A stretch of DNA of 64,000 bases. Source: Branchiostoma lanceolatum (Eukaryota; Chordata; Leptocardii; Amphioxiformes; Branchiostomatidae). The DNA lies in the NCBI RefSeq assembly GCF_035083965.1, contig NC_089723.1, forward strand, positions 5,913,501 through 5,977,500, read 5' to 3'. The notes beneath the pieces were generated by a model. That model was not told the origin of the DNA, searched no databases, and was given only the letters and a program-made list of their open reading frames with translations. Both the position numbers and the translations under genes were made by a program. How positions within the stretch are numbered: the stretch's first letter is position 1; the number at the start of each line of letters is the position of its first letter. Positions 3,476-63,561 of the stretch are shown in pieces.

Positions 3476-3915
3476 TACAGGACACAGAACAAAATCTGAC
3501 ACGCTTTCATCTCATACCTTCTGTTTATTGGTTAAACGTTTGTCACGCAACGCAATCGTTTATTTCTGACGATTTTGTTGCAACGTGGACGTGTTTAATC
3601 TCGCGGCAGATCTATCGGTGGCAAAGACCGAATCCAACTGGCAAAAGGAGTTTTGAACGGCGATTAAAACTCCTTTTGTCAGTTGGATACGGTCTTTGCC
3701 ACCGATAGATCTGCTTGAAGATTAGACGCGCTGTTCAATCAGGGATATACCGAAGCCAGTTAGCAGGTAAACCTGTTTTTCTCGACATGTGACGTCGTCA
3801 TACAGGACACGGAAAAAATCTGACAGGCTTTCATTTCATAGTATCTATTTATTGGTTAAACGCACGCAGCGCAATCGTTTTATTTCTGAAGATCTTGTTG
3901 CGGTCAAGACGTGCT
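3476..3915. repeat. Palindrome flanked by ~115-bp direct repeats
   Basis: A nearly perfect inverted repeat (3606-3659 and 3661-3714, arms of about 54 bp with almost no loop) would form a long hairpin. On each side lies a copy of the same ~115-bp sequence in direct orientation (about 3476-3600 and 3803-3915; shared blocks include TACAGGACAC and TATTGGTTAAACG). This may be one composite element or a MITE inserted in a tandem duplication. Confidence 0.6.
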
Positions 3916-4009
3916 ATTCTTCAAGCAAAGGTCTTGGTCTCGGACGAGTGGAAAGGGGGGAGAAACGTTTAAAATACCTGACACTCCTAGCCCACTTGAC
4001 CGAAACCAC

Positions 4010-4208
4010 TACTCTCCAAGCAGAGGAGTAGTTCCGGCTGGTTTTTGACGTGTTTTTAGGCGTTTTTGTCGGGATTTTCTACTTTGTCAATTTTTTCTCT
4101 CTTTTGTGGGGTTTGTAGAGACACAAAAATGACAAAATAGAAAGCCCGACAAAAACACCTAAAAGCACGTCAAAAACCAGCCGGAACCGCTCCTCTGCTG
4201 GGAGAGAG
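4010..4208. mobile_element. Palindromic MITE, CTCCAAGCAGAGG group
   Basis: Ends TACTCTCCAAGCAGAGG and its inverse enclose inverted arms of about 85 bp (CCGGCTGGTTTTTGACG, GCGTTTTTGTCGGG). Flanking 9-mers CGAAACCAC (4001-4009) and CGAAACTTC (4209-4217) match at 7 of 9 and look like a decayed 9-bp target duplication. It sits 38 bp downstream of the ENDOU stop codon, so in or beside that gene's 3' UTR. Confidence 0.8.
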
Positions 4209-4246
4209 CGAAACTTCTGCTTGGACAATATGGACGCGATGTTGTA

Positions 4247-7200: not shown

Positions 7201-10200
7201 AGGGTGGTATTGTACATTCTGTCATAGATAGCTTCTCTAAATAACCGCTATAGACATTAACTTCAGCTTAGTATCAAACAATGACCTACATCTTTTAGTA
7301 GGTAACAAGAACGGCCACACACGGGTAAAATACGTTCAGGAATTTGACTTCATCACAGCTAATGAATGTGACCTTTCGGTACATTTTGAGACTACTTACT
7401 CGGTACAGTTGTGGGAACGCAGAAGGCGCTGTAGTCATCACAACAGTTGCTGAACTCCTGACACCTGTCGTTACAGTGGCACGTATTGGAGGTGTCATAG
7501 GTTTCACCGCATCGTGAGGCACAGCTCACTGGGCAGGGGAGAAAGGGCATGAGAGGTAAGATAGGGCAGAACAGATGAGATACGACAGGAAAGGTAAGAC
7601 AGGACAGGTACGATAGGCCATGACAGGTAAAGTAGGACAGGACAGGTAAAGTAGGACAGGACAGGTAAAGTAGGACAGGACAGGTAAAGTAGGACAGGAC
7701 AGGTAAAGTAGGACTGGACAGGTGAGATAGGACAGGACAGACAAGGAACAAGGTTCCCCCTCTACGGTTTACTATGGTTTGATTGTTTCTAGACGCTATA
7801 AGATGTTGGGAAGATAGGATCGGACATGCATCGACGGCTTAGGTCGTTACAATTTGGACTAAGACACATCAGTCAGATATGTAGGTGATTGCTTGTGGAA
7901 AACACAGTCACTGGTAAATATCTGCACTCAACAAGACAGAAAACTAGTACACTGAAAAGTAATAATTATTGATTACTTTGTTTTTGGTACATGTAGACGG
8001 GCTCTCCTCGTTTCTTTTCAACCAGTGAGCTGAAGTCCCCAAAAGCTCTATACTGAACTAAACTCACCCCCCTCTAGCAGCGCGAAGACCCGCTCGGATG
8101 CTCGGCAAACCCTCCTGGACTCAGCCCTGCTCTTCTGAACTGAGGTTTTTGGGTATTGATGGCGTCACCAGAAAACAGTTTTCAGCCAATCAGAGGATTC
8201 CCACAAGCTCGTCTTGTGGAAATCCGCAAAGGTCGCTGGGTAGCTATCAGACAATCAGGTTACGTCTTACATCGCTACTTTGGGTTAAGAACAAAATAAC
8301 GGCTGTTTGCGCCAAATAAGGCTGGCTCATTAATTGTTCATGTGCAACTAACGGCTGTTTGTGCCAAATAAGGCTAGCTCAATGATTATTTATGAGCAAC
8401 TGTCAGTGACATCACCAATACCCCAAAACTTGGTTCAGAAGAGTCCGTAAGCCGAACGGGTTTTAGCGCTGCTAGAGGAGGGTGACTAGACTTGACTTCT
8501 GTACTTACTGGAGGCTACGAAAGACGATACGGGTGGCAAGGTGGTCGCTGAAGGAGATTGGGGAGAAAACGTCGCAGTTTTTAGTTAGCATTCATTAATG
8601 ACTTTGATCTTAAAGTAGATAAAAAGAATGGTCACACACATAATTAATGAGCTAGCCTTATTTGGCGTTAAGGAATTAAGGACGTTGGGGAATTAATCAC
8701 AGATACAAGTGCCTTCAAGTATATTTTGACTAGTCTCTACCAGACTAACTACACCAGTTATAGGGAGAATATTTGCCAGGGTTTCATTTGCAGGCCTCTA
8801 CACGGGCGAAATGTGATCTTCACCGTGGACTGACTCTACTGGCTAATTATTCATTTTTCTGCCTAATTCTACGATCCATACGCCCGTAGGAGAGCCTGGT
8901 GGAGGATATATTTTGACTACTGTGACTTACGCGGCGCATTTGTGGGAACACAGAAGGCGCTGTAGTCGTCACAGCAGTTGCTGAATTCCTGACATCTGTC
9001 GTTACAGTGGCAAGTATTGGAGGTGTCGTACGTTTCACCACACCGGGACGCACAGCTCACTGGACAGGGGATGACAAAGAACGCAACATGTAAGACGGGA
9101 GAGGTAAGGTAGGACAGGACAGCTAAGACAGGACAGGTAAGGTAGGACAGGACAGGTAATATAGTACAGGACAAGCGACCCGTGTGGCTGAACTAGCATT
9201 CGAAAGAAAATAAAGGCTTTCATTTGACTTGACTTGACTTGACTTGACTTGACAGGTAAGATAGAACAAGACAGATGAGATAGGACAGGAAAGGTAATAT
9301 ATTGCAAAACAGGTAAGAAACCTTCCAGTTGCTATAAGATGTTGACAAGATCGGATATGATATTTCTACTGGTTGACACTGGTGAATATTTGCACTCAAC
9401 AGGATAGGGAATGAGCACCAACCAAAAAGAAAACCTGACGTCAGCGGCGTTATTGTAATAAAGTAAACTTTGCTTTTGTACTTTGTTTATGTTGATCAGG
9501 TTCAGCCATTCGCACATGCAGCTTACTGATGCCTGACAATTAGAACTATCGCAAGGTTATCCAGACCACAGTATGCCAAGGTCAAAAGGAATTTCAATAA
9601 GATATACTATTAAGCTCGCTCCTGAAGCTTCGCCAAAAAAATCCTGATGAAAGTCGGAAATGTAGCAGAAAACTGCCAAGAATGTTTTTTGAGTGCCACA
9701 ACCCTTACCTTATAGAACACAGATTGCGTTGTAGTCGCTGCAACAGTTGCCATATTGGCTGCATTTATCATTGCAGTGACAGCGGTTGGCGTTGTTGTAC
9801 TAACTACTACTAAGTTATTCGTGAGTCTATATTGCCAAGAATGTTTTGAAGTGCCACAACCCTTACCTTGCAGAACACAGATAGCGTTGTAGTCGCTGCA
9901 ACAGTTGCCATATTGGCTACATTCATCATTGCAGTGACAGCGGTTGGCGTTGTTGTATTGCTCACCACAGCGACCAACGCAGGACGCTACAAGGGTCCAA
10001 GCAGATACATGAACAAGATTGTGAACGTTCATCATTGTGTTGTATAATTGAAAATTGCTAATTGAACGTACATTAACTTCTAGAGAAATTGTTAAATGTT
10101 AGACATATATTGATGCTGGTCTTGAATGAACGAATGAATGCATGGTTTATTAGTAACAAGTGTTACATGGTATTCAAAAGCTGAATACATTCTGTGAATT

Positions 10201-18529: not shown

Positions 18530-18724
18530 TACTCTCCAAGCAGAGCATGGGTTTCGGCTGGTTTTTGACGTGTTTTTTAGGCGTTTTTGTCGGGCTTTCT
18601 ACTTTGTCATTTTTGTTGTTGTATAGCCAACCAAAACAAAAGATGACAAAGTAGAAAGCCCGACAAAAACGCCTAAAAACACGTCACGAAAACCAGCCGA
18701 AACCCATGCTCTGCTTGGAGAGTA
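18530..18724. mobile_element. Palindromic MITE, CTCCAAGCAGAGG group, perfect 9-bp target duplication
   Basis: It begins TACTCTCCAAGCAGAG and ends with the exact inverse, with long arms (GGCTGGTTTTTGACGTG, GCGTTTTTGTCGGGC). Both flanks carry GAGCCAAAC (18521-18529 and 18725-18733), a perfect 9-bp duplication. This is the best-preserved member and defines the family's termini. Confidence 0.9.
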
Positions 18725-18734
18725 GAGCCAAACA

Positions 18735-19507
18735 TGTGTTCTCTATTAGCTCGGTAACCGGTAAGTCATAGGCATTGCCAGAATTTGGTAAGGTAGGACT
18801 CCTTGCTTTTCTTGTTTAATTTTCTTTCTTTTTAAAAATGTAGTTATACCCCAATTAAAACAGAGCTGTGGCTAGGTCTCATCATCAAGTAGACCTTCAA
18901 TTTTGTGTACAGCAGAGAATTTTTTTTTTCTCGTGATATAGAATTCAGATGACGTCCCCCTGTAAGAGTCTGTGTGACTACTGTTGTTTTAAGTGATGCC
19001 ATTCTTATAGAATAATCAGTGACATACGAACAAAACCGTTATGTCTAGAAGAAGAATCGGTCTTTGGCCTCAATGGATGCCAGCTTTAACGGCAGAGTAT
19101 TTGCCGTTTTTGGCACAGAATCAGACAGACGGATTCTAAAAAGGTGCTGTCATTTCATTTCTATGTAAATATGTAGAATCCGTATGCTGTTGCTCACATG
19201 ATAGGGCTATAAGGAATTATGTAGTACGACGTCTAATGTAATGGTAACATGAACATAATGATATCAACTGTAATTCAATGCTTTTCTTGATCGCTCTGTT
19301 TGTATTTAGAGAACCTTTCGGCTGATCTTTCTAAGTTAGGTTAATGCCGAAATTGAACTGGCAACAGTGGATGGAATCTTCTTATCATACGAGCACATTC
19401 TGCGGTTGGAAAGCAACAGGCATCAATATCATTTATATCTGAACGTGCAGTATGGTAGCCTTCGCCTGTTTTGTGTTATGGAATCTGCGCTGTTGCTGCC
19501 AATAATG
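18735..19507. other. Intergenic, no gene seen
   Basis: AT-rich sequence between two MITEs. I see no exon with splice context, no RNA gene and no clear repeat structure. Confidence 0.5.
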
Positions 19508-19713
19508 TACGCTCCAAGCAGATGTTAGGCCCCGGCTTGTTTTTGACGTCTTTCGAGGCGTTTTTATCGGACTTTGAGGCGTTTATAGGGTTTTATATTT
19601 TTTTCAGGCTTTGCTGGAAGACAAAAAGAATGCCTGACAAAATATAGAGCCCAATAAAAACTCTTCAAAAGACGTCCAAAACAAGTCAAAGCCTAAACTC
19701 TGCTTGGAGAGTA
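19508..19713. mobile_element. Palindromic MITE, CTCCAAGCAGAGG group
   Basis: Ends TACGCTCCAAGCAGA and TCTGCTTGGAGAGTA; arms include CCGGCTTGTTTTTGACGTC. Flanking 9-mers CCAATAATG and CCGCTAATG match at 7 of 9, consistent with an old 9-bp duplication. Confidence 0.82.
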
Positions 19714-21771: not shown

Positions 21772-21848
21772 TATTCTCCAAGCAGAGGTTTTGGTCGGCT
21801 GGCTGGGGTAGTAGCGGCCGGGGCGCGTAACCATTGCCTCCCGTAACC
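21772..21848 (+). repeat. Left terminal inverted repeat of the 10.5-kb transposon
   Basis: Seventy-seven bases identical to the reverse complement of 32189-32265. They begin TATTCTCCAAGCAGAGG and end in CCTCCCGTAACC. Confidence 0.9.
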
Positions 21849-22346
21849 TCTGCCACAGAACGCATAAGGGCGGGGCAGTTCTTTCAGAATCGGTGCCGCT
21901 GCCCCTCCCTGTGTATCATTAATTTATCATTAGGCAAAGAGTTTTACTGCCGGGGGATTAGCGCGGCCTCCGGTAACTTGGGGGAGTGTTCATCCAGCCG
22001 CGCGGGCACCCTGCTGTCACCCATACAATCACTCTGAATGGCTCCCGCCAGTTTGAAAGCATCCTAACGTAAAGTAAACTTTCCACACATTATGATAAAT
22101 GTTTCTTAGAAAAATTAAAGGTATAAATAAGATGTATAATTTTATGAGTAAATACATTTTATATTTTGAACATAATTATCTGAGTCTGAACTAGATACAC
22201 CGACATGAGAAAAACGTACGTGGATCGTTATGTTTACATGCGGTCAGGGCAACATGTCCAACATGGCTGCCGGAATATGATCGTCAGCTATCGGCAGTGT
22301 TTTTGAGAAAGATTCTGGCTGATTTTGCGGTATTAAAGACCCCACA

Positions 22347-25300
22347 ATGGCGTATGAGGAAAGAATCAGAACAAGGTATGTACTGTAGACAATTTCGTGG
22401 TTTGAACTTTGTTTTAGAGGAATATATTTCGGCACGTGTAGCTGGATATTTCAAAGCCTTTGTCATTGAAATTTTTTCAGTGTTTTTTTTTCTAAACTAG
22501 CGAGACAAATTCTTTCCATTGACTGTTCACAGTCATGTATACCATCAACATGAAATATTAAGTACATTTGAGTCTTAGAATTACTGTGGTAACGTTACCT
22601 GTGAGGATGGTAAACTTAATATACAAAATGCATCCTTGCTAGTCCAAATTCTGACGCTAGATAGCTGGTAGACATATTTTCGCACATAATTTATTTTATC
22701 CTTGATTTTCTACGAACTGCTAGTAAGCGTTATTCTGTTACGCGGAACAATCTTGAGTACAAAATGTAGTTCTATACTAAGAAATATACGAGTCCTTTCT
22801 CTTCTCGAACGTATAACAACAGGGCGAGAAATCATTTGTGTTTGTTTACTCGTGTTCTGCTCTGGTGATGGGGGAGGGGGGTATTTTTTTGGAGGGAAAA
22901 ATTTCACAACAATTACGTGCAAGTAATTTGGTACTTCCATGATATGAGTAACAGTTCCTGGTGATTTCGAAGGTATTGATTCACATGATTCGTTCTCTTG
23001 ATGTAATTCTTCAGGGAATTTTTTCAGTCCAACTTCTGCAAATCTTTATTCGTTTATATCAACATGGCAGAAATAGATATGATGTTCATTATTTAGATGA
23101 AATTCAAGTTCAGACTGCATTTTCATGTTGTAAGAATATAAAGGGAAATAATTTACGTATGCTCATGATTTTGTTTAAAAGGAAAAATGTTAAAAGATAT
23201 GGAGATTGACTGTATTTCATCCCATATTCCTAAGGTTGCGAGAGAAGATATGGCCAGACCCTTTTGGTACAGTTGAGCTGAAAACCATCGTGGCACTTTT
23301 GGACGACTTCCGCCTATCCCGCAACGAGGTCGGAAAGTATCTGAAGGCTGAATTTCCCCAGGTCAAAGTAAGACGAGGTCGGGCAAATACTGTAACGTTG
23401 TACACGGGTGTGTCCCTCAGCCTGCCCGTTCCAGCTGCATCATCAAGACGGTACAACCGACCACTAGCGAGAGACCGATCGCTTCTGTCCTCTACCATTG
23501 GCCACGTCTCAAGACAACCAAGCCTGGCCGACCCAACATTGACTTCAACACCAACCTACAGCAGCCACATCTCAAGACAACCAAGCCTGGCCGATCCAAC
23601 ATTGACTTCAACACCAACCTACAGCAGCCACATCTCAAGACAACCAAGCCTGGCCGACCCAACATTGACTTCAACACCAACCTACAGCAGCCACATCTCA
23701 AGACAACCAAGCCTGGCCGATCCAACATTGACTTCAACACCAACCTACAGCAGCCACATCTCAAGACAACCAAGCCTGGCCGACCCAACATTGACTTCAA
23801 CACCAACCTACAGCAGCCACATCTCAAGACAACCAAGCCTGGCCGACCCAACATTGACTTCAACACCAACCTACAGCAGCCACATCTCAAGACAACCAAG
23901 CCTGGCCGACCCAACATTGACTTCAACACCAACCTACAGCAGCCACATCTCAAGACAACCAAGCCTGGCCGACCCAACATTGACTTCAACACCAACCTAC
24001 AGCAGCCACATCTCAAGACAACATACACTCACACCAATCAACCATGGATACAGTAGCCATGATGTTACAGCATTAATCGAAGAAAACAGAATGCTGAGAG
24101 CACAGCTGTATGAAGCCCGCCAAGCAGCAGCCATCCTTGACCAATCTACTATGGAACATAGACTACACATGGAAATTTCAGCCCTTTGTTCAAACAGAAG
24201 CCCACTATCAGCCTCAATCAGAACTGTATCAGACATCCAACTATACAGCATCCAGGACACAACCTCATACATAAAAACACAAGCGCCAACAATCTACCAT
24301 CTAATCAGTAACTTGGTATCACCAACATACACAAGGAGCACAGAAGAACGGTCACACTCTGTAGCCGCGCTAGTCATCTCCACCATAGCCAACCACCACA
24401 GCCACAAGACAACTGGACTACAGACCATCCTTTCACTTGGATTTATGGCAAGGACTTGCAATGACCAGGTATATTCTAATTATAGGTTACATTTCAATGA
24501 TTTTGTCCCTCTTTGCTGGAAATAAGTTACATGTATCAAGTACAGCTTCTGGTTGGTGTCATATCTTGACTTAATAATCTTGACTAGGATTTTATAACCA
24601 TGGCTTGATGAAATTATTCCTTTCAGCTTCTGACAATCCTGAACCATGCGGGCATGACAGTTTCCCCCAGCACAACATCAAAGATCATCAAACAGAATGC
24701 TGATGAGATGCGGTCCACCCCCATCCCAAGTGAAGGACAGATATGGGCCTATGACAACCTGAACATCATGGTCCGTGTCCAGCAGATGAGGAAAGGTTAG
24801 CTATGACATCTTAACTTTTAACTTATGTATGTTTTATGTTGTACTTGTACCTGTATTTTTACTTAGTTTTTTAGAGCTCTGCATTTTGACATTACAGAAC
24901 TTTCAGCTATGTATTTTCAATCATACCGGTAGCAATAGGGATCACAAAAGTTCTTAAGAGGACAGAGTAAAGGCTCATCACAATTGATATATAACCAGCC
25001 TGTTGGTGATTACTTTTTTCAAAACAAATCATACAGCACAAATTTTGTGTCATATGAAAAACTAGCAGAAGGTTTAGGTATGGAAAGATTCTGTATGGAT
25101 TAGGTTTTAGATGTTGTAGTTGATGTTGTAGTTGTTTAGACATTGTAGTTGTCCACTTAAACAGAGCCACCATCTTTTCCATCTTTTGATATAGGTCTGC
25201 ATGGTGAAATGATGAACTGGACATCACGCATTACTATCCCGCTGAGGTACTTCCCTGATGCTGCTCTGTCCACAGAACCTTTGGTAAGTTTATACATATG

Positions 25301-28300
25301 TAGATGGCATTTTAGTTGTTATTCAACATAAAAAGGAGCTTGACTTGTACTTTGATGTTGCCTATGAACTTGTTTTTACATTCCTGATATTTATGGTATA
25401 CATGTATTTTTATAGGGAAGACGTCGAGATCTTCGTGCAGCTGATCTGCTGCCTAACCAAGAGGACATGACAATGCTGAAAAGGAGATTGGCCTCAAAGG
25501 TAAAGTCCCTGCTGTGTGCAGACTTCACTCGGTTCCAGGTGCACTACAAACCTCAACCCAACAAGGCGGTGCCAAAATCATCTTATAGGCCCCTGGAACT
25601 GATGAAGGAAAATGAGGCCAAAACTTCCGACAACATTGTCATTCTTCGACGTTTTGCTTCGGATGCTGGCATGACGCCTGAAAACTGCTGGGATCAGGTT
25701 AGACCCTTATTCATGAATCATTGTGACAGTGTTTGTTCTATGTAAACATTGTGCTGGACTTGATTCAAATTTGATATGCATAAATTGTAATCAGTCATCA
25801 TTATTATCGCATTGTAAGTTCAAAGTCAAGCATAACAAAAGTTTGTATTCTATTAGACTAAGTATTGATTTCATGAGTGTCATCTTGTTTTAGGGGACCA
25901 TATTATAGTACAGTATCAACAGGACATGACAAACATTATGTAACTGTTGCCTCTCTATTATCTAATAGGAAATTGTTGGTGACCAAGCCACCTGCAAAAA
26001 CATCAGGGGGGCAAGGCGTTTCAGGCAAAATGACATCAATCCACTTGAACAATTGACGTGGCCAAAGGAGTGTCCAGGTGAGTTCATGTGGAAGTTTGAT
26101 GATGATCTCCACTTCCTACATGGAAGACTGGAAAGTGTGTAGTCATGTTAGTCTTGTGGCAGTTTGTGTATGGTTGTTCAGTCTGAATTTTAGGATAGTT
26201 AAGAGTTATGACTTCATCCATAATCCATGATTATGTTAGTAGAAATGGAAATATCTGATGCCAAACTATACATTTGCAGGTGACTTCCACTTTCTGTGGG
26301 AGGACGCGAAATGCGTAGTGATGACGTATTGGTCCTCTCCCCGTAATGCTGGGTCCCTGGGCCATCTCAGGGATTTAGTGGACAGAAGAAACGTGGACTC
26401 ACTAGGTATGTACCTATTAGTTTTTTTGTGAATATGTTTAGAAAGACATTGTAATACATTAAATGACTGTAATACATGTGGACCTGAGTGAGTGAGTGAA
26501 TACAGAGGCGAATTCTAATGATATATACATAGTGTATTGATTCAGCTCTGAGTAAATTATGTTTATATTTTGCTGTTGTCACTACAGGCAAAAACTTCAA
26601 CGCCACAGACGAATTCTTGCATCATGCTTGCAAGGCACACCTGACGGCAGCCCTACTCCAACATCTAGGCATGCAGTCTGTCTCAGAAGATTTGCCAGGG
26701 ATGAGTGAGGAGGACTTGGATGAGATCATAGATTCCTTCTTGGATACATATGTTCTCACTCCACCTGACAGTGTTGAAGAGGACGATGCTGTTTTCAAGC
26801 AAGCCAAAGCTCACCTGACACACTTGCTGATGTACACAGACTTAAGACAGTGTATAAGGTGAAGACACGCATTTTGTTATTATACTTTGGTATTGTTCCT
26901 ATGCTGGCATCTTTTGATTTTTATCAAGCTTCCATCTGAAGTTTTGTATTAGAAATATTATTAATGTCTTGTGACAATCTTTTCACTAAAATATATATTC
27001 TGTACACAGCTTATCTGTCTGCAATTGCTTTTATGTTTGTAACTTTTGGTACAGCATTGGCATTAGTAAAGAAGAAATACACATGTACATTTTGGACAAA
27101 CACAAATATATTTTGTTCAGGAATGAAGACGGACCAGCAGTCGTCTCCCATTGGAGGCTCTGGCTGCCTACGTTTCTTGGAACCAACCGTACACAGTACA
27201 GCACAGAAGCAGCCAATCATCTAGCAAACATGAAAGCTGACTGGTCGCCCAAAACAACTTATGTCCTCACACACAACAGGTTCTACAACACGCATGGGAG
27301 ACATGGTCACGCCAAACCTGTAGACATGCTGGTCGAACACTACAACAAGTAAGCTTGTTTCAATGTCATCGACATCATGTGTTTTTAGTATGATGATTTG
27401 TTGACAAGCTCATATACAACCAGGCCATTGAGTATCGTAACTTAACATCATAGAAGTCACATTATTTACATAACTGTTTTACATACTTTTACAAGAGAAT
27501 TGATTTCACTATTGCATATAGAAAGAAATACTTAAAACATTGACAATTGCTTATACATAACAAAACATCTGTTTGTGAACCAGTGAAAAATACTACCAAC
27601 TACAGCAGGCTAGCTTCAATAGACATACATGGTTTTAACAACTCTATGCAGTGTGTATTGTATTCAGAAGTATATATTGACAATCATATGGACAGAACCG
27701 GTGGAATCATGTAAAAGATTTGCATGTACTTTGGAAATGATGAAGCATTAAACACCACAAGGCATGTCAGCCATTGTCAGCACATGCGTTTCAAAGTCTT
27801 CATGTGTTGAGCTGTTTTTATTTTAGAACTATACAGAAAAACAAAAAGAGCCATAAAAGGCTTAACATGTGACACAAATAATGTTTCCTACTGCAGGATC
27901 CTCAAGAAAGCCCTCAAAAGTTCGGGGGGGCGCTTGACGTTGCGTCATGCGCAGGAAGTTTCCCTGGCTGTGCCACTCCTTGACGAGGCGCGGAGGTTCT
28001 GTGATGGTGTGTTCAGAGCACGAAAGACGGTGAGCCATACATCTCCATCTGCTGATGCCGACGTGCAGTCTATGATACAGGCCATTTCCGAGGAGAAAGT
28101 GTACTCCCCTACTGCCGGCAGACGCCTCTTCTTTGGCAAAGATTTCAAAGACGTAACGCAGAAAGGGTGGAAGCGAGTCACTGCAGACAAGTGGTTGGAC
28201 AACTTCCTGCAGAAAGGAGTGACAGATGTAGATGAGGACGAGGATGGAGTCATCTCCAGGGATGAAGAGGAGGAGGATGATGCTGTTGTTGACTTCCCAG

Positions 28301-28317
28301 CGCTGATGGATGAATGA
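22347..28317 (+). CDS. Transposon-borne DUF6589-like protein, candidate transposase (985 aa, 10 exons)
   Basis: Exons: 22347-22375, 23235-24468, 24627-24795, 25195-25283, 25416-25697, 25969-26077, 26280-26405, 26588-26858, 27121-27348, 27897-28317. They total 2958 bp (985 aa plus stop) with matching phases. The start in exon 1 (MAYEERIRTR) is inferred from phase and splice sites and is the least certain part. Exon 2 holds LREKIWPDPFGTVELK and about eight near-identical 21-residue repeats (HISRQPSLADPTLTST). The conserved body reads HSVAALVISTIA, WAYDNLNIMVRVQQ, EIVGDQATCKNIRGA, DFHFLWEDAKC and THNRFYNTHGRHGHAKP then LVEHYNK, the order I associate with DUF6589. YDN, GDQ and the last E are possible acidic catalytic residues of an RNase-H-like transposase, which is inference. 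The C-terminus is strongly acidic (DEDEDG, RDEEEEDD). Confidence 0.82.
23502..24020 (+). repeat. 63-bp in-frame coding minisatellite, about eight copies
   Basis: The unit, containing CAAGACAACCAAGCCTGG and ACTTCAACACCAACC, encodes 21 residues. Copies differ at only one or two positions (e.g. GAT or GAC), so the array expanded recently or is kept homogeneous. The length is a multiple of three, so copy-number change preserves the frame. Confidence 0.95.
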
Positions 28318-28331
28318 TGATGAGGTGAGTA

Positions 28332-31300
28332 TCACAATGTGTTGCTGATGTCTTGTAGGGCCTGCCTTGCAACACGTGTCCTCCTTGCTCTCACCCGTCT
28401 GGTAGGTTGATACTCTGGATAGAGATGGTCTATCACTGCTAATAGGTCTTGAGCCTTGCCCTCTGGGATGCCGCTGATTTTTTCAAGATCTTCAGCAGTG
28501 TGGATGGTTTTGCACTTCCCTCCAATTTGTTGAACTGTCTCGTCAGCCATTACGGCATATGGCCCAAATAACCAGAGCTCTGGCCTTTGAGCATACCACT
28601 CTTTTCTCAGTTCCTTTATACGCTTCTCAAGCTCTTCAGACATACCGGTGTCTGGCCGTGCCCTCCTGCGTTTTTGTCCAGCTTGCTGCTGTCTCGGCTC
28701 ATTTTTATAATTGAAAAAAATACATTGCGACTCAGTGTCATCAGCAGTGTTACAGTGACTACAGCACTGATCAGGCTTTGCAGGCATTTCTTGGCCGAGA
28801 TGGTTTAAAAGGTCTGCACGGAGGCAGCCATCTGCAGCTACGAAGGCTTTAACCTCATCCTTTGCCTTTTTTAGATCACCCTTTCCGTTGAATATGATGG
28901 CACTGGCTTGCTCACCGTCTCGCCCAACTCTGCCGATTTCCTAGAACAAAGGAAGGTTCATTTAGATGTAAACACACCCTGGATTTGCATTTTGTGCTTG
29001 ATTTTTTAATAAACATTATTCTGCACTCACTAAGAGAATTTGACTAGTCTCATAGATCTTTCTTAATTGAACTACAGTAACCATATATGTTGCAGTTCTA
29101 ATTTCACTTAAAATGTGCAGCTTTCTGGCAGAACACTGATTGTGTGTGTCAACTATTACAAGACATTCTATACCTGGTAAAGCTGCCCGATGGTTGACGG
29201 CACGTGGTAGACCACTACTCCCCGCACATCAGGAATGTCAATGCCCTGTGTAAGAAACGATGCATGTAAATGCATTAGCATAATCCTATCCATCTTTATG
29301 TCTCTCTTTAGACAATAGATTACAAGCTTTGAAATTGCAACAGGACCATATTCAAACCATTAATTTAGATTGACTGAAACGCTGTGAAAACTTGTCAGGA
29401 ACAGATTGGTCTTGAGTCTATTATCTTGAGTCAGCATTAGAGCAGAAATGCAGAAATAAGTGTTTCAGTCAATCAAACAGACATCAACCACTAACATTAA
29501 AAAAAAAACGTAACAGAAACAACTTCATTGCAACAGGTTTATGCCAGGAACATGTGAAGTGTTGTGGTTACTGCAATGCTAATGGCAGTGAGTTATGATT
29601 AATTGAATTTGTAATACCATTCCAAAAGCAATGGATGATACAATCACCCTGACGGATCCTTCTCTGAAGCGCTGAAGCCATGTAGCCTTTGCCTCGCTGG
29701 ATATGTCGGCATGAAAGGCCACCACCGCCTTCTTTACAGCACCCTTGCAGTTTGCGTGCAGCTCTTCCCAGATTGCCATCACTGTATCTTTGGTCGTAGC
29801 GTAGACGATGTGTTTTCTGATGTCTTCCGAAGTCCGCGCCTCTCTCAGGTGTTCGATGAGAGGCTGAAAGTCTTCCTGTGTTGAAATAAATTGTTAACTA
29901 TATTAACAGAGTACAAGCTACTATAGATAACATATGAATATATGCTGTATCATTACTTAAATTGTTGTCAGGCAATATGGTTTTTATAAATGCTGCTGGT
30001 GCACAATGTTCAGATCTTATGTTGCTCTCAAATGTTGATCTCAAATGTTGATCCCAACTTAGAATTTCTATATATGTTCTGTTCACAATTGGTGTGATAT
30101 AGAAAGAATAAACTATACTTTACCTTTGTGCTCTTTATCTTTTTGGACAGGATCAGAATGTTTGGCCGGTCCAGGCTGCCCTCCACCACAACAGGATCAT
30201 CCATATGCAGCGCTGTAGTGACACTGTTGCGGACCTCAGCAGTGGCGGTGGCAGTCAGGGCCATGAATGGTACCTTTGGCAAGAGGGCCCGCAGTTCCCC
30301 GAGCTTGCTGAACGCCTTCCTGAAGTCGGCGCCCCTGGTAGATTAATGGAAGATTTCAGTCTCAAAAACTTGCGCACATTTGTAAAGTCTTGTCTATCCA
30401 TTACAACTGCTCACAAATACTGACCACATGTCAACAGTAATGTTGGAAATATATACCAGTATACATGCACAGGATGCACTACTGTGAAATTAGCTTGGTT
30501 TTGAGGAGCTGGTTCAATAATGTTACCACAAACTTTTTGAGATTTAACAGATTGTGCATTTACCTTGTACATTGTTCGGCAATTGTAGAAACCATATTTC
30601 CTTCTTTCTTTTTTAAACTCCTCCCTACATGATCTACTGTATACATATGTCATTTTTGGGTGACAACATACCATTCTGGTATGCAGTGTGCCTCATCCAC
30701 TGCCACCAGTGCTATAGGCAATGGTGGGTTCTGAAGCAGGTGTCGACCTTCTGTTGAGACCGCTTGCTCGGGAGCCATGAAGACTGTAATAAAAGTACAG
30801 TGCAGTTACAAACTTGTAAGACCTGCCTTATTCAGATCTCATTCTCCTCTTGTAAAAAGGAAGTTTAAGTAGGACATATCACTAGGTCTGTACCATGGAC
30901 AAGGAAGCCACCAGGGTCCATGAGTATTTCTTTATTGTTTGATATTGATATGTTGCAATACCACTGTGACTCATGCTGAGATTTGTATTGTTAATTATTG
31001 ACATGTTGCAAAAGAAGCCAATGGTTTATTCTATGGATATGTACTGTTGTTGGGTTGCAAAGAAAACACTGGTTCATTCAGGGATATGTTGAAAAATCCA
31101 CTTGTTTATTCTCATGGTAATGTATTGTTGATATAGTAAGAACACTAAGTGGTATATTCAGGGACATGTGTTGTTGATAACAACATTGGTTTGTTTAGAG
31201 ATATGTTTTGTTGATATGCTGCAAAAAACACTTGTTCGTTCTGTATGTATTGTTAACATGTACATTCAGGGATATGCACCGTTGATGTGTTGAGAAAAAA

Positions 31301-31849
31301 ACATGATTCAATCAGGGAGAGGTATTTTTTATACTTACCCATTCGAACATTGTTGTCTGGCGTTTGTTGAAATTCTTTGATCTCTGCCACTGTTCTGAGA
31401 TGTATGCCTTTGTAGCCAGTGACAGTCTCATATCGATGGATCTGAAATAATAAAAAATGTGTTGTTTAGAAATGTGGTACACCCTCCTAGGAGAAAATAT
31501 ATCAAATCGGAAGGGGGAGGGGGGCGTTCGTGATTGAATAAACACTGGTGAAAAACACGTCGATTTTCAGGTAATGAGAAACAATTAACTTTAACAGTAG
31601 GCAAATATACGTTACCTGATCAGATACAAGTGCTTGGAGAGGCGAAATCACGATGACGATCTTTGATTCTTTTGAGATTGATGGCAAAATCTGATAGCAG
31701 AGGGATTTGCCTTGTCCCGTAGCCAATCCAACAAAACAATCTTGCCCCCGACAGGCGGCACGGATGGCTTCCACCTGGCCTTCCCTCAGCTCTGTAAAAC
31801 CCCACAAGTCCTTTGCCACCCGTACTGCCCTTGACCCGGCGTCATCCAT
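28332..31849 (-). CDS. Transposon-borne RecQ-family DNA helicase (532 aa, 7 exons)
   Basis: Exons in transcript order are 31849-31616, 31441-31339, 30783-30672, 30334-30124, 29875-29618, 29245-29174 and 28940-28332. They sum to 1599 bp with consistent phases. Motifs in order are: motif 0 (GFTELREGQVEAIRAA), Walker A (LATGQGKSLCYQ), Ia (ISPLQALVSDQ), aromatic-loop region MAPEQ, DEAH box (VAVDEAHCIPEW), III (MALTATATAEVR), IV (IVYATTKDTV), V (VSSIAFGMGIDIPDV), VI (QEIGRVGRDG). A zinc-binding segment follows (CLRADLLNHLG then CCSHC). The basic C-terminal tail (QKRRRARP, RRVRARRTRVARQ) could bind DNA. RecQ enzymes unwind DNA 3' to 5'; here a role in transposition or repair of the excision site is inferred. 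The stop lies 14 bp from that of the DUF6589-like gene, so the 3' UTRs must overlap. The ATG at 31849 is the first in frame after an upstream stop. Confidence 0.9.
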
Positions 31850-32188
31850 CGTCAAGTAGAGACGGTAAGTGTTCTGTTTTGAATGGACGGGTTTTGAACT
31901 GGCTGTGACCCCGACCGTTAGGAGTCGTCGTGGGTCACTGCGTGCCTCGTCCGGCAGACCGGAAACGCCCGTGGCGCGGGTATGGCGCGGGGAGAAGAAA
32001 CCCTAGACTGCCTTGGCAGACTTCGCACCTACTTACAAAATAGCCTTAATGTGTCAAAGGGATTAGATTTAAAAGGCTTGATCGGTTCCGTCATCTCGCA
32101 GAGGTTACGGGAGGCGATGGTTACGGGAGGCAATGGTTACGCGCCCCGGCCGCTACTACCCCAGCCAGCCGACCAAAACCTCTGCGAT
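31850..32188 (-). promoter_or_regulatory. Probable promoter/5' UTR region of the transposon helicase gene
   Basis: About 340 bp between the helicase start codon and the right TIR. It is CpG-rich near 31910-31990 (GTCGTCGTGGG, GTGGCGCGGG) and contains a first, slightly diverged copy of the duplicated subterminal repeat from 32116. No TATA box is clear. The assignment rests on position only. Confidence 0.4.
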
Positions 32189-32255
32189 GGTTACGGGAGG
32201 CAATGGTTACGCGCCCCGGCCGCTACTACCCCAGCCAGCCGACCAAAACCTCTGC
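32116..32255. repeat. 70-bp tandem duplication at the right terminus
   Basis: Two identical 70-bp units (32116-32185 and 32186-32255) start with GATGGTTACGGGAGGC and end AACCTCTGC. The second forms most of the right TIR. The left end carries a single copy. Confidence 0.92.
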
Positions 32256-32265
32256 TTGGAGAATA
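32189..32265 (-). repeat. Right terminal inverted repeat of the 10.5-kb transposon
   Basis: Exact inverse of 21772-21848. It ends CTCTGCTTGGAGAATA. Confidence 0.9.
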
Positions 32266-32275
32266 GTGTCTGAGT

Positions 32276-32715
32276 ATTCAATTTAACGGAATTCATACCA
32301 ATTTAACGGAATTCATACGAATTTTACGGAATTCATACGAATTTTACGGAATTCAAACGATCCACTACTAAGGAACAGGCGAAATTTACAGAATACATAC
32401 GAATTTTTCGGAAAACATACGAATCTTATGAAATTATTAGAAATACAATTCGCTACTCAGAAACATACGAATTTCATGGAATCTATACGATCCACTACTG
32501 AGAAACATATGAATTTTACAGAACTCATACGAGTTTTACGGAATACATACGATCCTTACTACATGTGTTAGTAAAACTCTTATGAATTCCGTAAATGTGT
32601 ATGTTTCTTATCAATGTATGATATAAATTCTGCAAAATTCGTATGTTTCCTAGCAGTAGATCGCATGAATTCCGTAAAACTTGTATGAATTGCGTACAAT
32701 TCGTATAAACACTTA
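32276..32715. repeat. AT-rich degenerate repeat, inverted halves (GGAATTCATACGAATTTTAC)
   Basis: About twenty degenerate copies of a ~20-bp unit; from roughly 32575 on, the units appear as the reverse complement (GTAAAATTCGTATG-like). The block abuts the right end of the big transposon and may be a foldback element that inserted there. Confidence 0.65.
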
Positions 32716-34085: not shown

Positions 34086-34254
34086 ATGTTGCGATATACT
34101 AGTACGTGCGTAATCTATGTTACTGTGATGCAATAAAAATACGGTTTTTGGCGGCAAATGTACAGTTCTTTGCATATTGGTTCACCAAATCCGTATGCGA
34201 CGCCACGAAATACAAGTCATGTCCATAATTGCATTATTTTTTGGTTTGTTACAG

Positions 34255-35975
34255 GGTTCGGCTTCTCCCTTGCCTTTCTACCAACGATGACTATGGTGGG
34301 ACGTTACTTCGAAAAACGACGTACGCTTGCCAACGCCTTGGCGTGGATGGGGGCGTGCACCGGCAACTTCGCCTTCCCGCCATTTTTCCAGTTCCTGATC
34401 GACTATTACGGTTGGAGAGGCGCCCTTTTTGTGATCAGCGGAATAGCTCTGAACTGCTGTGTCTGTGGCGCTCTGCTCAAGCCGATCAAAATCCCTGCAG
34501 ACGACACTATTCATGACTGTTGCCAAGGAGATGACATCACTAGGGATGACGTGTGCAGACCTGAAAAAGATGATGTCACTGTAACGACGAAAACATTGCC
34601 AAAGACATACCACCGAACTAGATGTAGAATGTTAGGTTTCTCCCTTCTTAGGAAACGCCAGTTTGTACTATATCTTCTCTCGTTTGCTTTTCTATACTTT
34701 GGATACTACGTGCCATTTGTACATTTGGTTCCACGTGCAGTGTTCCAAGGAGTCGGCGAGTACCAAGCCGCGTTTCTCATCTCGGTCCTTTCCGTCGGGG
34801 ACTTCGTCGGTCGGGTTGTCATAGGGATGATTCCGGAATTTCCCAAATATGGAAAAGTGCACAAGTACGTCATCACGGCGAGCATGCTGGGAATTTGTTC
34901 GCTGCTGTGTCCGCTGGCTGTGACGTATACGGCCATGTTGGTTCACAGCGTGGTATACGGGTTTGCGAACGGGCTTATCATCCCCTTGACGTTTGCCGTC
35001 GCCGCCGATCTGGTCGGGACGAAACGGTTAGGCAGCGCCATCGGGCTACTGATGATGGCGGAAGGGATCAGCGCCTCGTTGGGACCGCCCGTGGCAGGTA
35101 ATTAGTACTGTCCGCGATGTAACATCTACTAACATATAATTCCACCAGGGTACATAATTCCGCCACCCTGAAAAGATACGTCTAAACAGATATCCAAACC
35201 AACGTCCCCCAGTATAATGCACTCCTGTATATCTAAACTGTGCATATCTGGGAGATGCTGCACTAGAGATCTCTCAAACCCGCTGTTTTTCAAAGGTGCG
35301 GATTTATGTTAGTGGAGGTTAGATTTCCGTCTCTGCCATTTAAAACGGTCGATGCCATATCCGAGCGCATTATAACTTTTTTGGGAAGGAAGGGGGAAAG
35401 ATTGATAGTGAAAAAAGGAAACTATACCAGCTCGGGTTAAAACCCAGGTCAAAAAGTCTGACCCTAACTCTCTACGACACAAAGCATCACAGTGTTGATG
35501 ACAAGTGCTAATACACTTAGAAACGTTCTGCAACATGGCATCGAGCGGGTCAAATGGCAATGACCGGTTGCGAAATAAAAATCTGGCACTGACGAACAAC
35601 TGTGTTGTACAACTGTGTTGTTACGGCGGACGGACAAAGAACGTATGGACTAGGGTTGGTCGGTTACGGTTTAAACTTTTTTAATACTTGAATTTATAAT
35701 TGATTTGACTTTCAGAAAATGTTGCGGGTAATGTGTTCTTCATCAATAGTTTTGTGTGTGTGTTAACAGGTGCTTTGTATGACCTGACCGGAAACTACAA
35801 CATGTCGTTTCTGACCGCCGGAAGTTCCATGGTCCTGGCCGGTATCATCATGATCCCCGTCATACTTATCGCCAGAAAGAAAGAACAGTCGCCTTTTAAT
35901 GGAGAAGTCAAGAACAGCACAGCAAAGGATGACGATAGACTAGAGACGGTTTATGAAAGGCTAACATCTCTATGA
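34255..35975 (+). CDS. SLC16/monocarboxylate-transporter-like gene, 3' exons
   Basis: Exon 34255-35097 enters in phase 1 and encodes FGFSLAFLPTMTMVGRYF, ANALAWMGACTGNFAFPP, the DYYGWRGALFVISG helix, a hydrophilic central loop, and the second set of membrane helices (ending AIGLLMMAEGISASLGPP). After a 672-bp intron, exon 35770-35975 encodes ALYDLTGNYNMSF, the last helix and a short hydrophilic tail. The two exons are intact (349 codons with phase-1 borders) and match the second SLC16-like gene in order. They belong with the damaged 5' exons at 20393-21771. Unlike that second gene, there is no intron after the PPFFQ motif. A SINE starts directly after the TGA. Confidence 0.8.
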
Positions 35976-36290
35976 GGAGGTGTCCCTGTGGTGTAGTGGT
36001 CTGTGCTTCTGTCTCTCACCACATCTGGTTTAAATTACTTGGACCAGAAGGACTGGGGTTCAAGCCACAGGTAGGACACCTCTGGACAAGAGGCGCATTG
36101 AGTCATATCAAAGACTTTATAAGAATAGTACATACTTCTGAAACAGTATGGAAGTTAAACACACTTCACTGACAGTGGACTAGCCCCCTGCTGCATTGAT
36201 TGCACCACAGTGTGGCACAGGGCTATGAAACGGAGATGGGCACCGCCCTATACACCTTATGGTGTGGGAGGATTTCAACTTTTTAACTTA
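35976..36290 (+). mobile_element. tRNA-derived SINE (GTGGTGTAGTGGTCTG family), target duplication spanning the stop codon
   Basis: Box A TGTCCCTGTGGTGTAGTGG, box-B-like GGGGTTCAAGCC, and a TTTAACTTAAA-type tail. The 13-bp flanks AACATCTCTATGA (35963-35975) and AACATCTCTGTGA (36291-36303) differ at one base. The left copy contains the SLC16-like stop codon, so the element begins exactly after it. Other copies are at 45358-45684 and 55709-56014. Confidence 0.88.
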
Positions 36291-42660: not shown

Positions 42661-47742
<5,082 letters not shown>

Positions 47743-50483: not shown

Positions 50484-53400
50484 TCATACAGTAGTTTCCA
50501 GTTCTATAACGACTGGTTCGTCGGGAAAATGAGTCGTTTTTAAGAGTTTTTTCTGCTCAGCTTCGATAAATATTACAGGCTGAGTTCTGTCAGTCGTTGA
50601 TCTGCAGAACCCCATGTCTCCCATGATGCAGTGCGCGGTGAGGCGGAAGAGGGCGGAAGTGACGACCATCCCGCCGCACAACAGGAACGACACGTTGTAG
50701 CTTCCGGTGACGTCAAACAGCCAGCCTGTACAAAAATATGAGCAGAAAATCAACATTAACGTACCGACTCCCTACTGAAAACAACATCATAAATATCACT
50801 TTCAAGTTTGCTTCCAAGATCGAACAATAGAATGCTTTAAACTATCAGCGCATGCTTCTCCATCAGAGGAGAATAAGCATAAATCCCAGAATTCCTTGCG
50901 ATACACATTCCACAACTCCTTGCTGAGGGCAACAAAGTTTATCACACAACTAAACAAAACAGTTGTACAGAAGTAACAAAAGCAGACAGTCTCATGGACT
51001 ACTTCAGTCTTCTGACAATTCAAGAAAATTAAAAAAAAATACTGATCAAACTGTACCAGTTGCTGCGCTGTCAAAAGCAACGTGACAAGTCTGTATGCTT
51101 CTTGATCAGTTAGCCATTTTAAATATGTATTGTGGACTGTGTATTGCAAGGAATGCTGGGATGGATGCATATCCTTCCCTGCTGCTACCAGTATGACTTA
51201 CCTACAACAGGGGACCCAATAAGTTGCATGACGCCGTTGAACAGCAGCATGGTCCCCAGAGCCTGCGGGAACTTGGCTATCTCGACAAAATCCGGAATCA
51301 CTGTGACGATGGTTGGCACGAACAGGCCAGAGAATAACCCGAACAACACGCACATCACCAGCATTAACGTGTAGGTCTTCGACAGCGTGAATACCAAACT
51401 AGTTACCCCTAAACACAAAGCAGCTATGACGGCAAGCCAGAGTCGTTTCAACGGAGACGGACGGAAACTCATGATCAGGCCGCTGGACAGACGACCTATG
51501 ACGTCAGTGATGGCGTTGGCCGATAGAAGAAACGCAGCGCTGTACTCTTCGATCCCAATAGACCTTGCGCGCGGAACGATGAAGAAGATCAACGTCGGGA
51601 ATGAGAAGGTGAACAGCATCATGGTACCGATGTGTACCAAGTACGCGGGCACTCTGAATAGGGATTTATCGATGATATTACAACAACACAGTGTTCTGTT
51701 AGTTTTGTCTGTGTGAACGGCTTCGCTGGAATTTTCCTCTTCAGCACGGGTGAGTTTCTTGGCGTCTCCCTTCAACTGAATCGGACGGAAGAATGAAGAG
51801 AAGACGCACGCCTGCAGTTCCAGCCCCGCGATGATGATGAGGGATCCCCGCATCCCGTACTCGTCGATAAGAAGCTGGAAGAGGGTAAAGGGAGCATGTA
51901 CACGTAGTTTTCCCATTTATGCAAATGAGCAAATGCGTAGAAGCAGTCATGCATATATCACCACACATGCTAACGTACTTCTCAACCACAGCTATCAACC
52001 GTCTCTTTTTATACACATCTTGTACACTCTTCATTACTCTAATTCATCCTACCTGATTCTGTATCACTCCTATACACCCTTCTGCACTTGTATTCATTAT
52101 CCTAACTGATTCTGCATCACCCTAGTACACCCCGACCAATCGATCACATTGAAACTCAGATTCGAATCAGCCATTTCCCGACAAATTCCTTTCTAAGTTG
52201 CGGTAACGACTACATCTGACAAAATAAACTCGCCAGTGAGATGCTGGAAGGTGTCAGCTTTCCAGAGATGTTTTCAGATTGGCAATTTTGGCACTTTGGA
52301 AGTAATAGAAAGTGACCGCGATTTAACGTTTACAAAAATAGTTTCTACTACTTTTCTTCAAACGTTAAATCGCGGTCACTTTCTATTACTTCCAAAGTGC
52401 TAAAATCTGAAAACATCTCTGCAAAGCTGACACCTTCCAGCATCTCACTGGCGAGTTTAGTTTGTCGGATTTAGTCGTTAACGCAACTTAGAAGGAATTT
52501 GTCGGGAAATGGCTGATACGAATCTGAGTTTCAATGCGATCGATTGGTCGGGGTGTAGTACACCCTAAAAAAGTACATGCTCCCCTTACCTGGAAAAGAG
52601 GCGGGAGGGCGAAGGAGCCGATGCAGGTCCCCATCAGGGCAAGACTGTTGGCGAGCCCGCGCCGTCTGTCGAAGTACCGACTAACTATGGACGTGGAGGC
52701 CACGTGTGTCAAAGACACGCCCACTCCTGAGAGAGTGAAAGGTCACAGATTGCAATAGGTGCTGACAATGATTCTGATCGCGGTTTACACTGCGCATGCG
52801 TAGCGAGATGCATTGTGGGTGATATGTCAAAGGTGAAGGCCCCCAACTTGTAAACAGTTCTTGTTCAGATACGCTTGTTTTGTTTATGTCTCAGGGCTCT
52901 ACAACTTTAAAATATCACACACAATACATCTCGTAGCGCATGCGCAGTTTAATCCGTGAACAAGCTTATACACAAACGTACGGATTATTAATGATTCTTT
53001 TCACCGGTGGGCAGATATCATCAAAACTAACAATTACAAAAAAATGGTACTAGCATAAGAGATGCCAAAAATCAATATTTGAAATTGGGAAATGGGGACG
53101 CCTATGAAATAAGAAAAGCAGTCACGATAGTCACAACTGATGGTGAACAGTCTGCCCCACCTGCTACAAGTCCAAGTGTGACGTAGACATGGTAGATCTC
53201 TGTGGCGAAGCTGCTCAGGAAATACCCGATGCACACAAAGACTCCTCCCGTCATAGCAACCGGACGGCTTCCGAATTTCCTGATCAGCGCCCCTGACACT
53301 GGACCTGTAGGCATGAAAAAATAAGTACTGTAGATCACTGAGAAGACAGTCAAGTTAAAGTGTTTGTTGATACTCATCCATCATACGAAAGTTGGTTGTT

Positions 53401-55708: not shown

Positions 55709-56014
55709 AGTTAAAATCCTCCCACACCATTATTGATGTATAGGGCAGTGCCCATCTCCGTTTCATAGCCCTGGGCCACACTGTTGTGCAATCACTGTAG
55801 CAGGGGGCTAGTCCACTGGCAGTGAAGTGTGTTTAACTTCCATACTGTTTCACAAATATGTACCATTTTTATAAAGTCTTTGGTATGACTCAATGCGCCT
55901 CTTGTCCAGAGATGCCTTACCTGGGGCTTGAACCCGGGCCATCTGGTCCAAGTAATTGGAACCAGATGTGGTGAGAGACAAAGGCGCAGGCCACTACACC
56001 ACCGGGACACCCCT
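55709..56014 (-). mobile_element. tRNA-derived SINE, copy 3
   Basis: Same family as 35976-36290. Flanks TAGCTTGGTGGTCATTA (55692-55708) and TAGCTTGGTTGTCATTA (56015-56031) form a 17-bp target duplication with one mismatch. Confidence 0.9.
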
Positions 56015-58747: not shown

Positions 58748-58973
58748 TACTTTCCAAGCTGAGGTTCGGCTCTAGCTGGTTTTTGAGGTGGTTTTAGGCG
58801 TTTTTGTCGGGCTTTCTGTTTCGCCCCGTTTTATTTATGTCGCCAATTCATTGTCATCAAGGATCATCAAGCCATTGGCGACATAAAGAAAACGGGACAA
58901 AATAGAAAGCCCGACAAAAACGCCTAAAATCACGTTGAAAAACAGTCGTAGCCGAGCCCCTGCTTGGAGTGTA
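58748..58973. mobile_element. Palindromic MITE, CTCCAAGCAGAGG group
   Basis: Ends TACTTTCCAAGCTGAGG and CCTGCTTGGAGTGTA; arms carry AGCTGGTTTTTGAGGTG and GGCGTTTTTGTCGGGC as in 4010-4208. The inner hairpin (GTCGCCAAT...ATTGGCGAC) is specific to this copy. Confidence 0.8.
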
Positions 58974-61615: not shown

Positions 61616-61764
61616 TAGTATCCAAGCAGAGGTTGTTGGGGGAAATTGTGACCTTCTTAGCATACGCCCCGTTTTTTGTCAGCATTGACAGAAAACCTAG
61701 ACAGAAAACCTAGCATATTATAAGAGGGTCACAATTTCCCCCCACAACCTCTGCTTGGAGAGTA
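61616..61764. mobile_element. Palindromic MITE, CTCCAAGCAGAGG group, 8-bp target duplication
   Basis: TCCAAGCAGAGGTTGTTGGG and GGAAATTGTGACC-type arms pair with the right end AACCTCTGCTTGGAGAGTA. GGAACGCA flanks both ends (61608-61615, 61765-61772); a ninth base differs. Confidence 0.85.
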
Positions 61765-61857
61765 GGAACGCAGTGGTTCAACATTGATATATAAGACAGC
61801 AGTGAGAGCGAATAGAATTCATCGTGTTAGAATCGTAATGTAAATACTATATTTCAG

Positions 61858-63561
61858 AAGAATAAATATCTGTCCCTGTATGGTAAAATTGTTATTATTA
61901 ACACTTTGGTGGTTCCCCAATTTACAAATCTATTTCAAGTCTTACCATCCCCTAACGATTCCTTTTTCAAAGTATATGAAAAGAAGATATTTTCTTTTAT
62001 TTGGGACAACGGTCCTGAACGAGTTGCACGGAGGGTTTTATACAATACATCGGAAAATGGAGGACTAAACTTAAAAAATTTACGCGCGTTCAACACTTCT
62101 ATAAAAGCTTCATGGGTACCTAAACTTTATTCTCATCCCGAATGGTTTTCCTCCTGGGTAACAGTCTTCCATCCTCAACTTAATCATAGTTTATTTCCTT
62201 TTTACCAGCTGTCCTCGGTGATAAACCTTTGTTTAAAAGGATTTTTTTCTGAAGTTTTTATGTCCTGGTTTCAATTTCAGCACGTAGAGCCCACGACGCC
62301 GGCAAATGTACGACAACAAGTAATTTGTTTAAACTCTAATATTATTATTGATGGTAAAACTGTTTGTTTGACAGCTTTTATGAATAGGAATATATATTTC
62401 ATAAATGACTTGCTGTCCCCGGACGGCAATTTTATGTCTTATGATGAATTCAGTACAAATTTCCCAAATGCTTGTGACCAACATAGATATCTACAGCTTA
62501 TTTCAGCTATTCCCGGTAAATGGAAAAAACTACTTAGTACTGAGAAGCGTAAAGACCTTGTGTGCCTGCCCTTTCAAAAAAATTATAAATGGTTACGAAA
62601 TATAAAAATCAATAAAAGCATGTATATCTACTTTCTTACGTCCATGAACGAGGTCAGCCTTGCACACAATACTAGACTTTCGTGGTTCTATTATTTTGAC
62701 AAACCTATACCATGGCGAGATGTATTTACAAACTTATATAGATGTACTATTGATCCAAGTACTAGATATTTTCAATACCGATTAATTAATAAATTTTTAC
62801 CTTGTAACAAAATTCTACATATATGGAAATTAATAGACTCTAGCTCTTGTTCTTTCTGTCATGACGATGTAGAATCCTATATTCATATTTTCTGGGAGTG
62901 TCCGCATGTAGTATCATTTTGGAACGATGTAAAAAATTGGTTGAAAGTAGAAACTTCTATAGAGTGCTACCTAAATTCCTTTATTATCATATTTGGAGAT
63001 ACATGTAACGATGCGCCCCCCCTGAAAAATCTGATTATTTTGTTAGGTAAAGTTTTCATCTTCCGGTGTAGACGCTTAAAAATAATAAACTTCCAGGCCT
63101 TTAAAAGACTAATATCTACTTTTGAAAAAACTGAACGTCTCATTGCATCTCGGAGAGGGAAGCTGGAGAAGCATCGGGGTAAGTGGGGAACTTTGTGTTT
63201 AATTTGATTTTGAAATGTAGAAATAATCATGAAAGAATATAGAAATGACATGATAATGATATTTGATTACAATACTGAAATGATTATGCGAGTAATGATA
63301 CAATGCTTATATGAAAAGATTATATGTAATGTGATAAAATGATATGTAATGACTTGATAACCAATATGAATAACGTTAGTAATGACATAATAATAATCAT
63401 ATTATATGAGCTGTTAAGTTTACTATGTGGCTGTTAGACTTGGATAGGTCAATATTTAAGGGAGGTTCTTCTTTTTCTGTTGTGTGATTGTTATATTTAT
63501 CAGTGAAAATATAATAAAGAACAATAAAGAAAAAAAAAAAAATAAAAAATAAAAAAAAAAA
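61858..63561 (+). mobile_element. 5'-truncated L1/Tx1-type non-LTR retrotransposon with 16-bp target duplication
   Basis: An open frame runs from the 5' junction (NKYLSLYGKIVIINTL) to the TAA at 63205-63207. It covers the segment after the reverse transcriptase core (ENGGLNLKNLRAFN) and the typical C-terminal end (FQYRLINKFLPC, CSFCHDDVESYIHIFWECPH). About 320 bp of AT-rich 3' UTR ends in AATAAAG and an A-rich tail. AAATACTATATTTCAG is duplicated exactly at 61842-61857 and 63562-63577. The frame is unbroken, so the insertion is young, but the 5' truncation makes it immobile. Confidence 0.92.

Follow-up and report, generated by a model that had tools for sequence, protein, structure and literature searches.

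Is the 10.5-kb stretch at 21772-32265 a single mobile element with a helicase of its own, and if so, to which group of DNA transposons does it belong? The window, to which all positions refer, is the whole 64-kb stretch of DNA that was analysed. Our answer, to which we give a probability of roughly three in four (0.75), is that 21772-32265 is one copy of a two-gene cut-and-paste transposon that most likely belongs to the AcademH lineage in the Academ superfamily. The AcademH lineage of this superfamily reportedly goes back to Kojima in 2020.

A preliminary description of this DNA had claimed perfect inverted termini of 77 bp, and the two termini were indeed 100% complementary over all 77 nt (21772-21848 vs. 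32189-32265). Terminal inverted repeats (TIRs) were among the features by which membership of AcademH was judged, and those found here are 77 bp long and perfect. The ends consist of the following features:

21772..21848, + strand: left TIR, 77 bp, beginning TATTCTCCAAGCAGAGGTT
32189..32265, - strand: right TIR, 77 bp, a perfect match to the left TIR
32114..32183, - strand: second, tandem copy of TIR bases 11-80, identical to 32184-32253 and adjoining the right TIR

Within the terminal repeats GCAGAGGTT and AACCTCTGC form recurring blocks. Counted over 400 bp from each end, GCAGAGGTT is found once on the left and twice on the right. The bases immediately flanking the element are GCTT (left) and GTGT (right).

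Both genes between the termini were modelled from the DNA on the basis of open frames, splice signals and the order of Pfam matches. The lengths of 985 and 532 aa given in the preliminary description were known while the joins were being chosen, so the agreement in length is not fully blind. The models are:

22347..28317, + strand: transposase-like gene, 985 aa, 10 exons, 9 GT-AG introns and one terminal stop
Its modelled exons 1-5, + strand: 22347-22375, 23235-24468, 24627-24795, 25195-25283, 25416-25697
Its modelled exons 6-10, + strand: 25969-26077, 26280-26405, 26588-26858, 27121-27348, 27897-28317
23501..24022, + strand: tandem repeat within exon 2, 63-bp unit in frame (21 aa), 8.3 copies matching at 98%
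28332..31849, - strand: RecQ helicase gene, 532 aa, 7 exons and 6 GT-AG introns
Its modelled exons, - strand: 31849-31616, 31441-31339, 30783-30672, 30334-30124, 29875-29618, 29245-29174, 28940-28332

That two complete spliced genes are present had been claimed before, and the rebuilt GT-AG models are open through all exons; when each coding sequence was shuffled 500 times by mononucleotide, an open one never arose. In both genes the G+C content is 50-51% in exons and 33-34% in introns. The two genes begin near opposite ends of the element and converge tail to tail, with their stops 14 bp apart. The weakest part of the 985-aa model is its first exon (22347-22375, 10 codons), which has an ATG and a donor site as its sole support. 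The 25194/25195 boundary of the same gene was chosen for frame retention; mini-exons between 24796 and 25194 were dropped, and the direct join from 24795 to 25195 preserves the frame.

When the tandem repeat was left out, the 985-aa protein matched positions 3-407 of the 410-position Pfam profile PF20231 (DUF6589) with 211.8 bits, in agreement with the DUF6589-like identity proposed beforehand. Consecutive parts of this profile were matched by five exon-bearing open stretches, two of which were above the cut-off alone. No Pfam family besides DUF6589 was found in the repeat-free protein at E values up to 0.5, and a PDB search with the DUF6589 region gave a best E value of 0.65, which is at chance level. 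A match of exon 2 to Extensin_1 was rejected, being weak (35 bits vs. a cut-off of 105) and caused by the 63-bp repeat. In viral contigs a DUF6589 exon yielded 3 pattern matches and 0 relatives. The 985-aa protein had no tblastn match (E 0.01) at the 80 best bacterial and archaeal RecQ loci described below, and no DUF6589 match was found in 3 bacterial genomes from these 80 loci and 14 control genomes, a result that does not prove absence. In the 985-aa protein D464, D639, and E842, chosen by eye, are candidates for the clustered acids of a putative RNase-H core.

The 532-aa protein contains DEAD and Helicase_C domains (Pfam) and scored 281.2 bits against the RecQ family model TIGR00614 (curated cut-off 219.8), in agreement with its earlier identification as a RecQ helicase. 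An SF2/RecQ-type helicase was also among the features by which membership of AcademH was judged, and this protein is of that type. Patterns for what we take to be helicase motifs 0, I, Ia, II, III, IV, V, and VI were all found, in order; some of these patterns were derived from this very sequence, and the family matches are therefore the stronger evidence. A RecQ zinc-binding model gave a weak match, below its cut-off. The best solved relatives of the transposon RecQ were 4tmu (208.3 bits) and 1oyw (199 bits), both presumably bacterial chains. For the other solved chains, which we take to be human, the best scores were 170 (WRN), 166 (BLM), 152 (RECQ5), 138 (RECQ1), and 127 bits (RECQ4). Since 4tmu and 1oyw score above all of these human RecQ chains, the transposon RecQ does not resemble an animal orthologue of WRN, BLM, RECQ5, RECQ1, or RECQ4.

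Bacterial and archaeal genomes yielded at least 594 relatives of the transposon RecQ among at least 596 pattern-matched stretches, and the best 80 of these at least 594 relatives were 30-37% identical to it. These relatives place the helicase in RecQ generally and say little on its origin. For three loci among the best 80 (L001, L002, and L004) the match extends to query residue 488-500, L004 being known by its match range alone (residues 11-496). L001 and L002 are the RecQ proteins of two Paceibacterota bins, and their alignments reach the C-terminal end of the transposon RecQ, a region that in our view resembles HRDC and that gave no Pfam hit. According to the alignments, the transposon RecQ, L001 and L002 all have just a short stretch between the zinc region and the HRDC-like end. 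The last RecQ exon gave 9 pattern matches and 0 relatives in viral contigs.

Elsewhere in the window the end motif is confined to seven short, gene-free MITE-like elements with ends like TAYTCTCCAAGCAGAGG, for which no strand is assigned:

3915..4230: element A, MITE with a similar end motif, 5/9 duplication bases, possibly interrupted by A_in
4010..4208: element A_in, 199-bp MITE inside A, 7/9 duplication bases
18530..18724: element C, 195-bp MITE with a similar end motif and a target duplication exact over 9 bp, GAGCCAAAC
19508..19713: element D, 206-bp MITE with a similar end motif, 7/9 duplication bases
45677..45838: element E, diverged MITE-like element carrying the core of the end motif, 2/9 (no duplication), beside another repeat family
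58748..58973: element F, palindromic and MITE-like, 226 bp, with a similar end motif, 2/9 (no duplication)
61616..61764: element B, 149-bp MITE with a similar end motif, 8/8 at 8 bp and 2/9 at 9 bp

Seven such elements in one 64-kb window suggest an abundant non-autonomous family, and judged by their sequences they look like ordinary non-autonomous derivatives. That A_in is nested in A is possible because of its 7/9 flank match; joining the flanks of A_in raises the TIR match of A from 23/40 to no more than 24/40. Element B has a 9-bp duplication if one boundary is shifted by a base, and element E reaches 4/9 if its left end is placed at 45337. The terminal motif had 0 matches in viral contigs, and a literature search with the end motif as text returned no transposon paper by title among the matches listed.

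Some neighbours of these elements are repeats of other kinds. Element E adjoins one copy of a second repeat family, which is present at 35976-36254, 45396-45684, and 55737-55935; the three copies compare in inverted orientation at 92-93% identity. Element B adjoins a 458-aa open stretch (61831-63204) that is likely a LINE remnant, its zf-RVT domain (PF13966) scoring 36 bits. Elsewhere in the window there are open stretches with MFS_1 transporter matches on opposite strands at 34137-35102 and 51188-51916 (111.5 and 60.2 bits), an open stretch with a Somatomedin B domain on the - strand at 9613-10098 (46.5 bits), and a 132-bp tandem repeat at 560-1302 (5.6 copies, 83% match), the unit of which, by eye, resembles a TPR coding repeat. 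No Rfam family was found in the 64-kb window.

The presence in this window of seven elements that have similar ends and no genes, together with the lack of a target-site duplication at the outer ends of the large element, speaks for a reading in which a pair of host genes, or fragments from two insertions of transposons, lie between two MITE-type ends and do not form one mobile unit. We consider this improbable. With up to 2 mismatches allowed, the window contains 17 copies of the end core CTCCAAGCAGAGG, vs. 0.99 expected (0 of 100 shuffles reached 17), and at this threshold the large element has a single core at each end, whereas a whole MITE has two. The 77-bp TIRs are identical to each other, and the short elements match them over about the first 17-23 bases only. 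The two genes point inward, one from each end of the element, with their 3' ends facing each other, and the RecQ protein scores higher with 4tmu and 1oyw than with any WRN, BLM, RECQ5, RECQ1, or RECQ4 chain. The view that this is a DNA transposon pairing an open DUF6589 gene with its own RecQ, as put forward in the preliminary description, is supported by the TIRs, the gene models and the domain matches, and the copy may be autonomous, as was also suggested there.

The flanks of the short elements were tested for target-site duplications with boundaries fixed by the end motif, at lengths of 2-12 bp (11 lengths) and with 20,000 random placements. Summed over the seven elements, the flank match peaked at 9 bp: 34 matches vs. 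16.2 expected (z = 5.0, p = 0.0001, uncorrected for the 11 lengths, with 9-10 bp as a prior from the reported AcademH length). At other lengths the values were p = 0.03 (12 bp), p = 0.07 (8 bp), and p = 0.96 (10 bp, 12 matches vs. 17.9 expected), and there was no significant signal at 3 and 4 bp (p = 0.15 and 0.16). The seven pairs were set beforehand by end position, except for the choice of the left end of E, and E and F, which have no duplication, were kept in. Eleven pairings had been compared first; the sum omitted the large element (0/9), the alternative left end of E at 45337 (4/9), and the cross-pairings 3915-4208 (3/9), 4010-4230 (3/9), and 18530-19713 (4/9). A 9-bp duplication thus accompanies this end type in most, not all, of these elements, and by extension the same length would apply to the large element.

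At the outer ends of the large element itself, 0/9 bases match in register and 4/10 match at 10 bp. No flank match was found at lengths 6-11 with boundaries shifted by up to 4 bases, and no 8- or 9-mer is shared, at up to 1 mismatch, between the 60 bp preceding the element and the 300 bp following it. With no flank duplication, either the flanks have been rearranged, or the two termini stem from separate insertions, or this part is misassembled. Local rearrangement is also suggested by the tandem TIR copy at the right end. An AT-rich region with tandem repeats of about 20 bp and an imperfect hairpin (88-nt arms, 81%) adjoins the right end at 32280-32709; it is possibly another repeat element and possibly the cause of the absent duplication. 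The transposon had been called intact in the preliminary description, a term that calls for qualification, as the present copy lacks the duplication that an undisturbed insertion should have.

The assignment to AcademH is weakened by the 0/9 of the large copy and by the fact that, among the short elements, C alone is exact at 9 bp. The text available from one source gives 9- or 10-bp duplications for AcademH and 3 or 4 bp for AcademX, and links these lengths to the AcademH helicase and the AcademX nuclease (PMC10045372). In the available part of another, "RecQ Helicase in Academ" is listed, credited to Kapitonov and colleagues and in print by 2013 (PMC3627910). AcademH is preferred over a separate lineage because of the 9-bp signal from the short elements as a set and this published RecQ in Academ, and the precedent named in the preliminary description is accordingly the better fit. 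The separate lineage would be a DUF6589/RecQ group outside Academ that gained its RecQ independently, as in KolobokH, its agreement in 9-bp duplications being a coincidence. RecQ genes are indeed not confined to a single transposon superfamily (KolobokH and Kolobok-1_CCri carry them; PMC9587614), and our literature search found no mention of DUF6589, hence no printed link between DUF6589 and Academ. We nevertheless judge this reading unlikely: the 9-bp signal and the RecQ agree with the reports on AcademH and Academ, and in the ends, the duplications and the helicase nothing was found that distinguishes the element from AcademH. It is also unlikely, in our estimate, that DUF6589 is a non-Academ transposase family with an independently recruited compact RecQ (core, zinc region, HRDC-like end and just a short stretch between) as its obligate partner; animals would then have two cut-and-paste systems that came to rely on a helicase by convergence.

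Under the preferred AcademH reading, the 985-aa DUF6589 protein would be a DDD/E-type transposase that binds the terminal repeats, with the GCAGAGGTT and AACCTCTGC blocks as likely binding sites. It would cut at the TA-ended termini and join the ends to target DNA at positions staggered by 9 bp. The RecQ helicase, whose gene reads in from the other end, may unwind DNA during strand transfer or during repair of the gapped product, and the short elements with similar terminal sequence could be mobilised in trans. A role of its own RecQ in the movement of Academ is no more than a proposal in PMC10045372 and PMC3627910. Its two open genes and identical termini of 77 bp make the present element a good candidate for asking if an animal transposon requires its own RecQ to move. 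If the DUF6589 protein is the transposase, this also gives a function to Pfam DUF6589, a family labelled as of unknown function.

Among known systems, Helitrons encode a Rep/Helicase protein and have no TIR, and they are ruled out by the long TIRs and the RecQ-type helicase. MULE and Merlin-type elements make 8-9-bp duplications; they are ruled out by the lack of any such Pfam transposase domain in the repeat-free 985-aa protein (E up to 0.5). Kolobok elements have TTAA as their target duplication. A KolobokH-like element, with a Kolobok transposase and a RecQ, is highly improbable here: the likeness is that KolobokH is a transposon encoding a RecQ helicase, whereas it is reported only from fungi (both according to PMC9587614), and neither the flanks GCTT and GTGT nor the 9-bp signal given by the short elements fits TTAA; no TTAA flanks the present element, and this reading is already contradicted. 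AcademX belongs to the same superfamily as AcademH; it differs, as far as the available text of PMC10045372 goes, in having a nuclease in place of the helicase and duplications of 3-4 bp, for which the short elements give no significant signal. Our literature search returned nothing joining Academ, helicase and XPG, and no description of this element was found in the text examined on Academ and Branchiostoma; it may already be catalogued in Repbase. AcademH itself is portrayed, in the portions available, as a helicase-carrying DNA transposon lineage named from animals and fungi (PMC10045372, PMC10799480), and as a low-copy helicase-bearing element of fungi (PMC10799480). Compared by description, the present copy differs from it in having no duplication and in its duplicated right TIR. 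It resembles AcademH in its helicase, RecQ being the type named for Academ, and the 9-bp signal from the short elements with similar ends may reflect the 9- or 10-bp duplications reported for AcademH. Helicase-bearing Academ elements having already been described, the find is not a surprise; it looks like a well-preserved addition to them.
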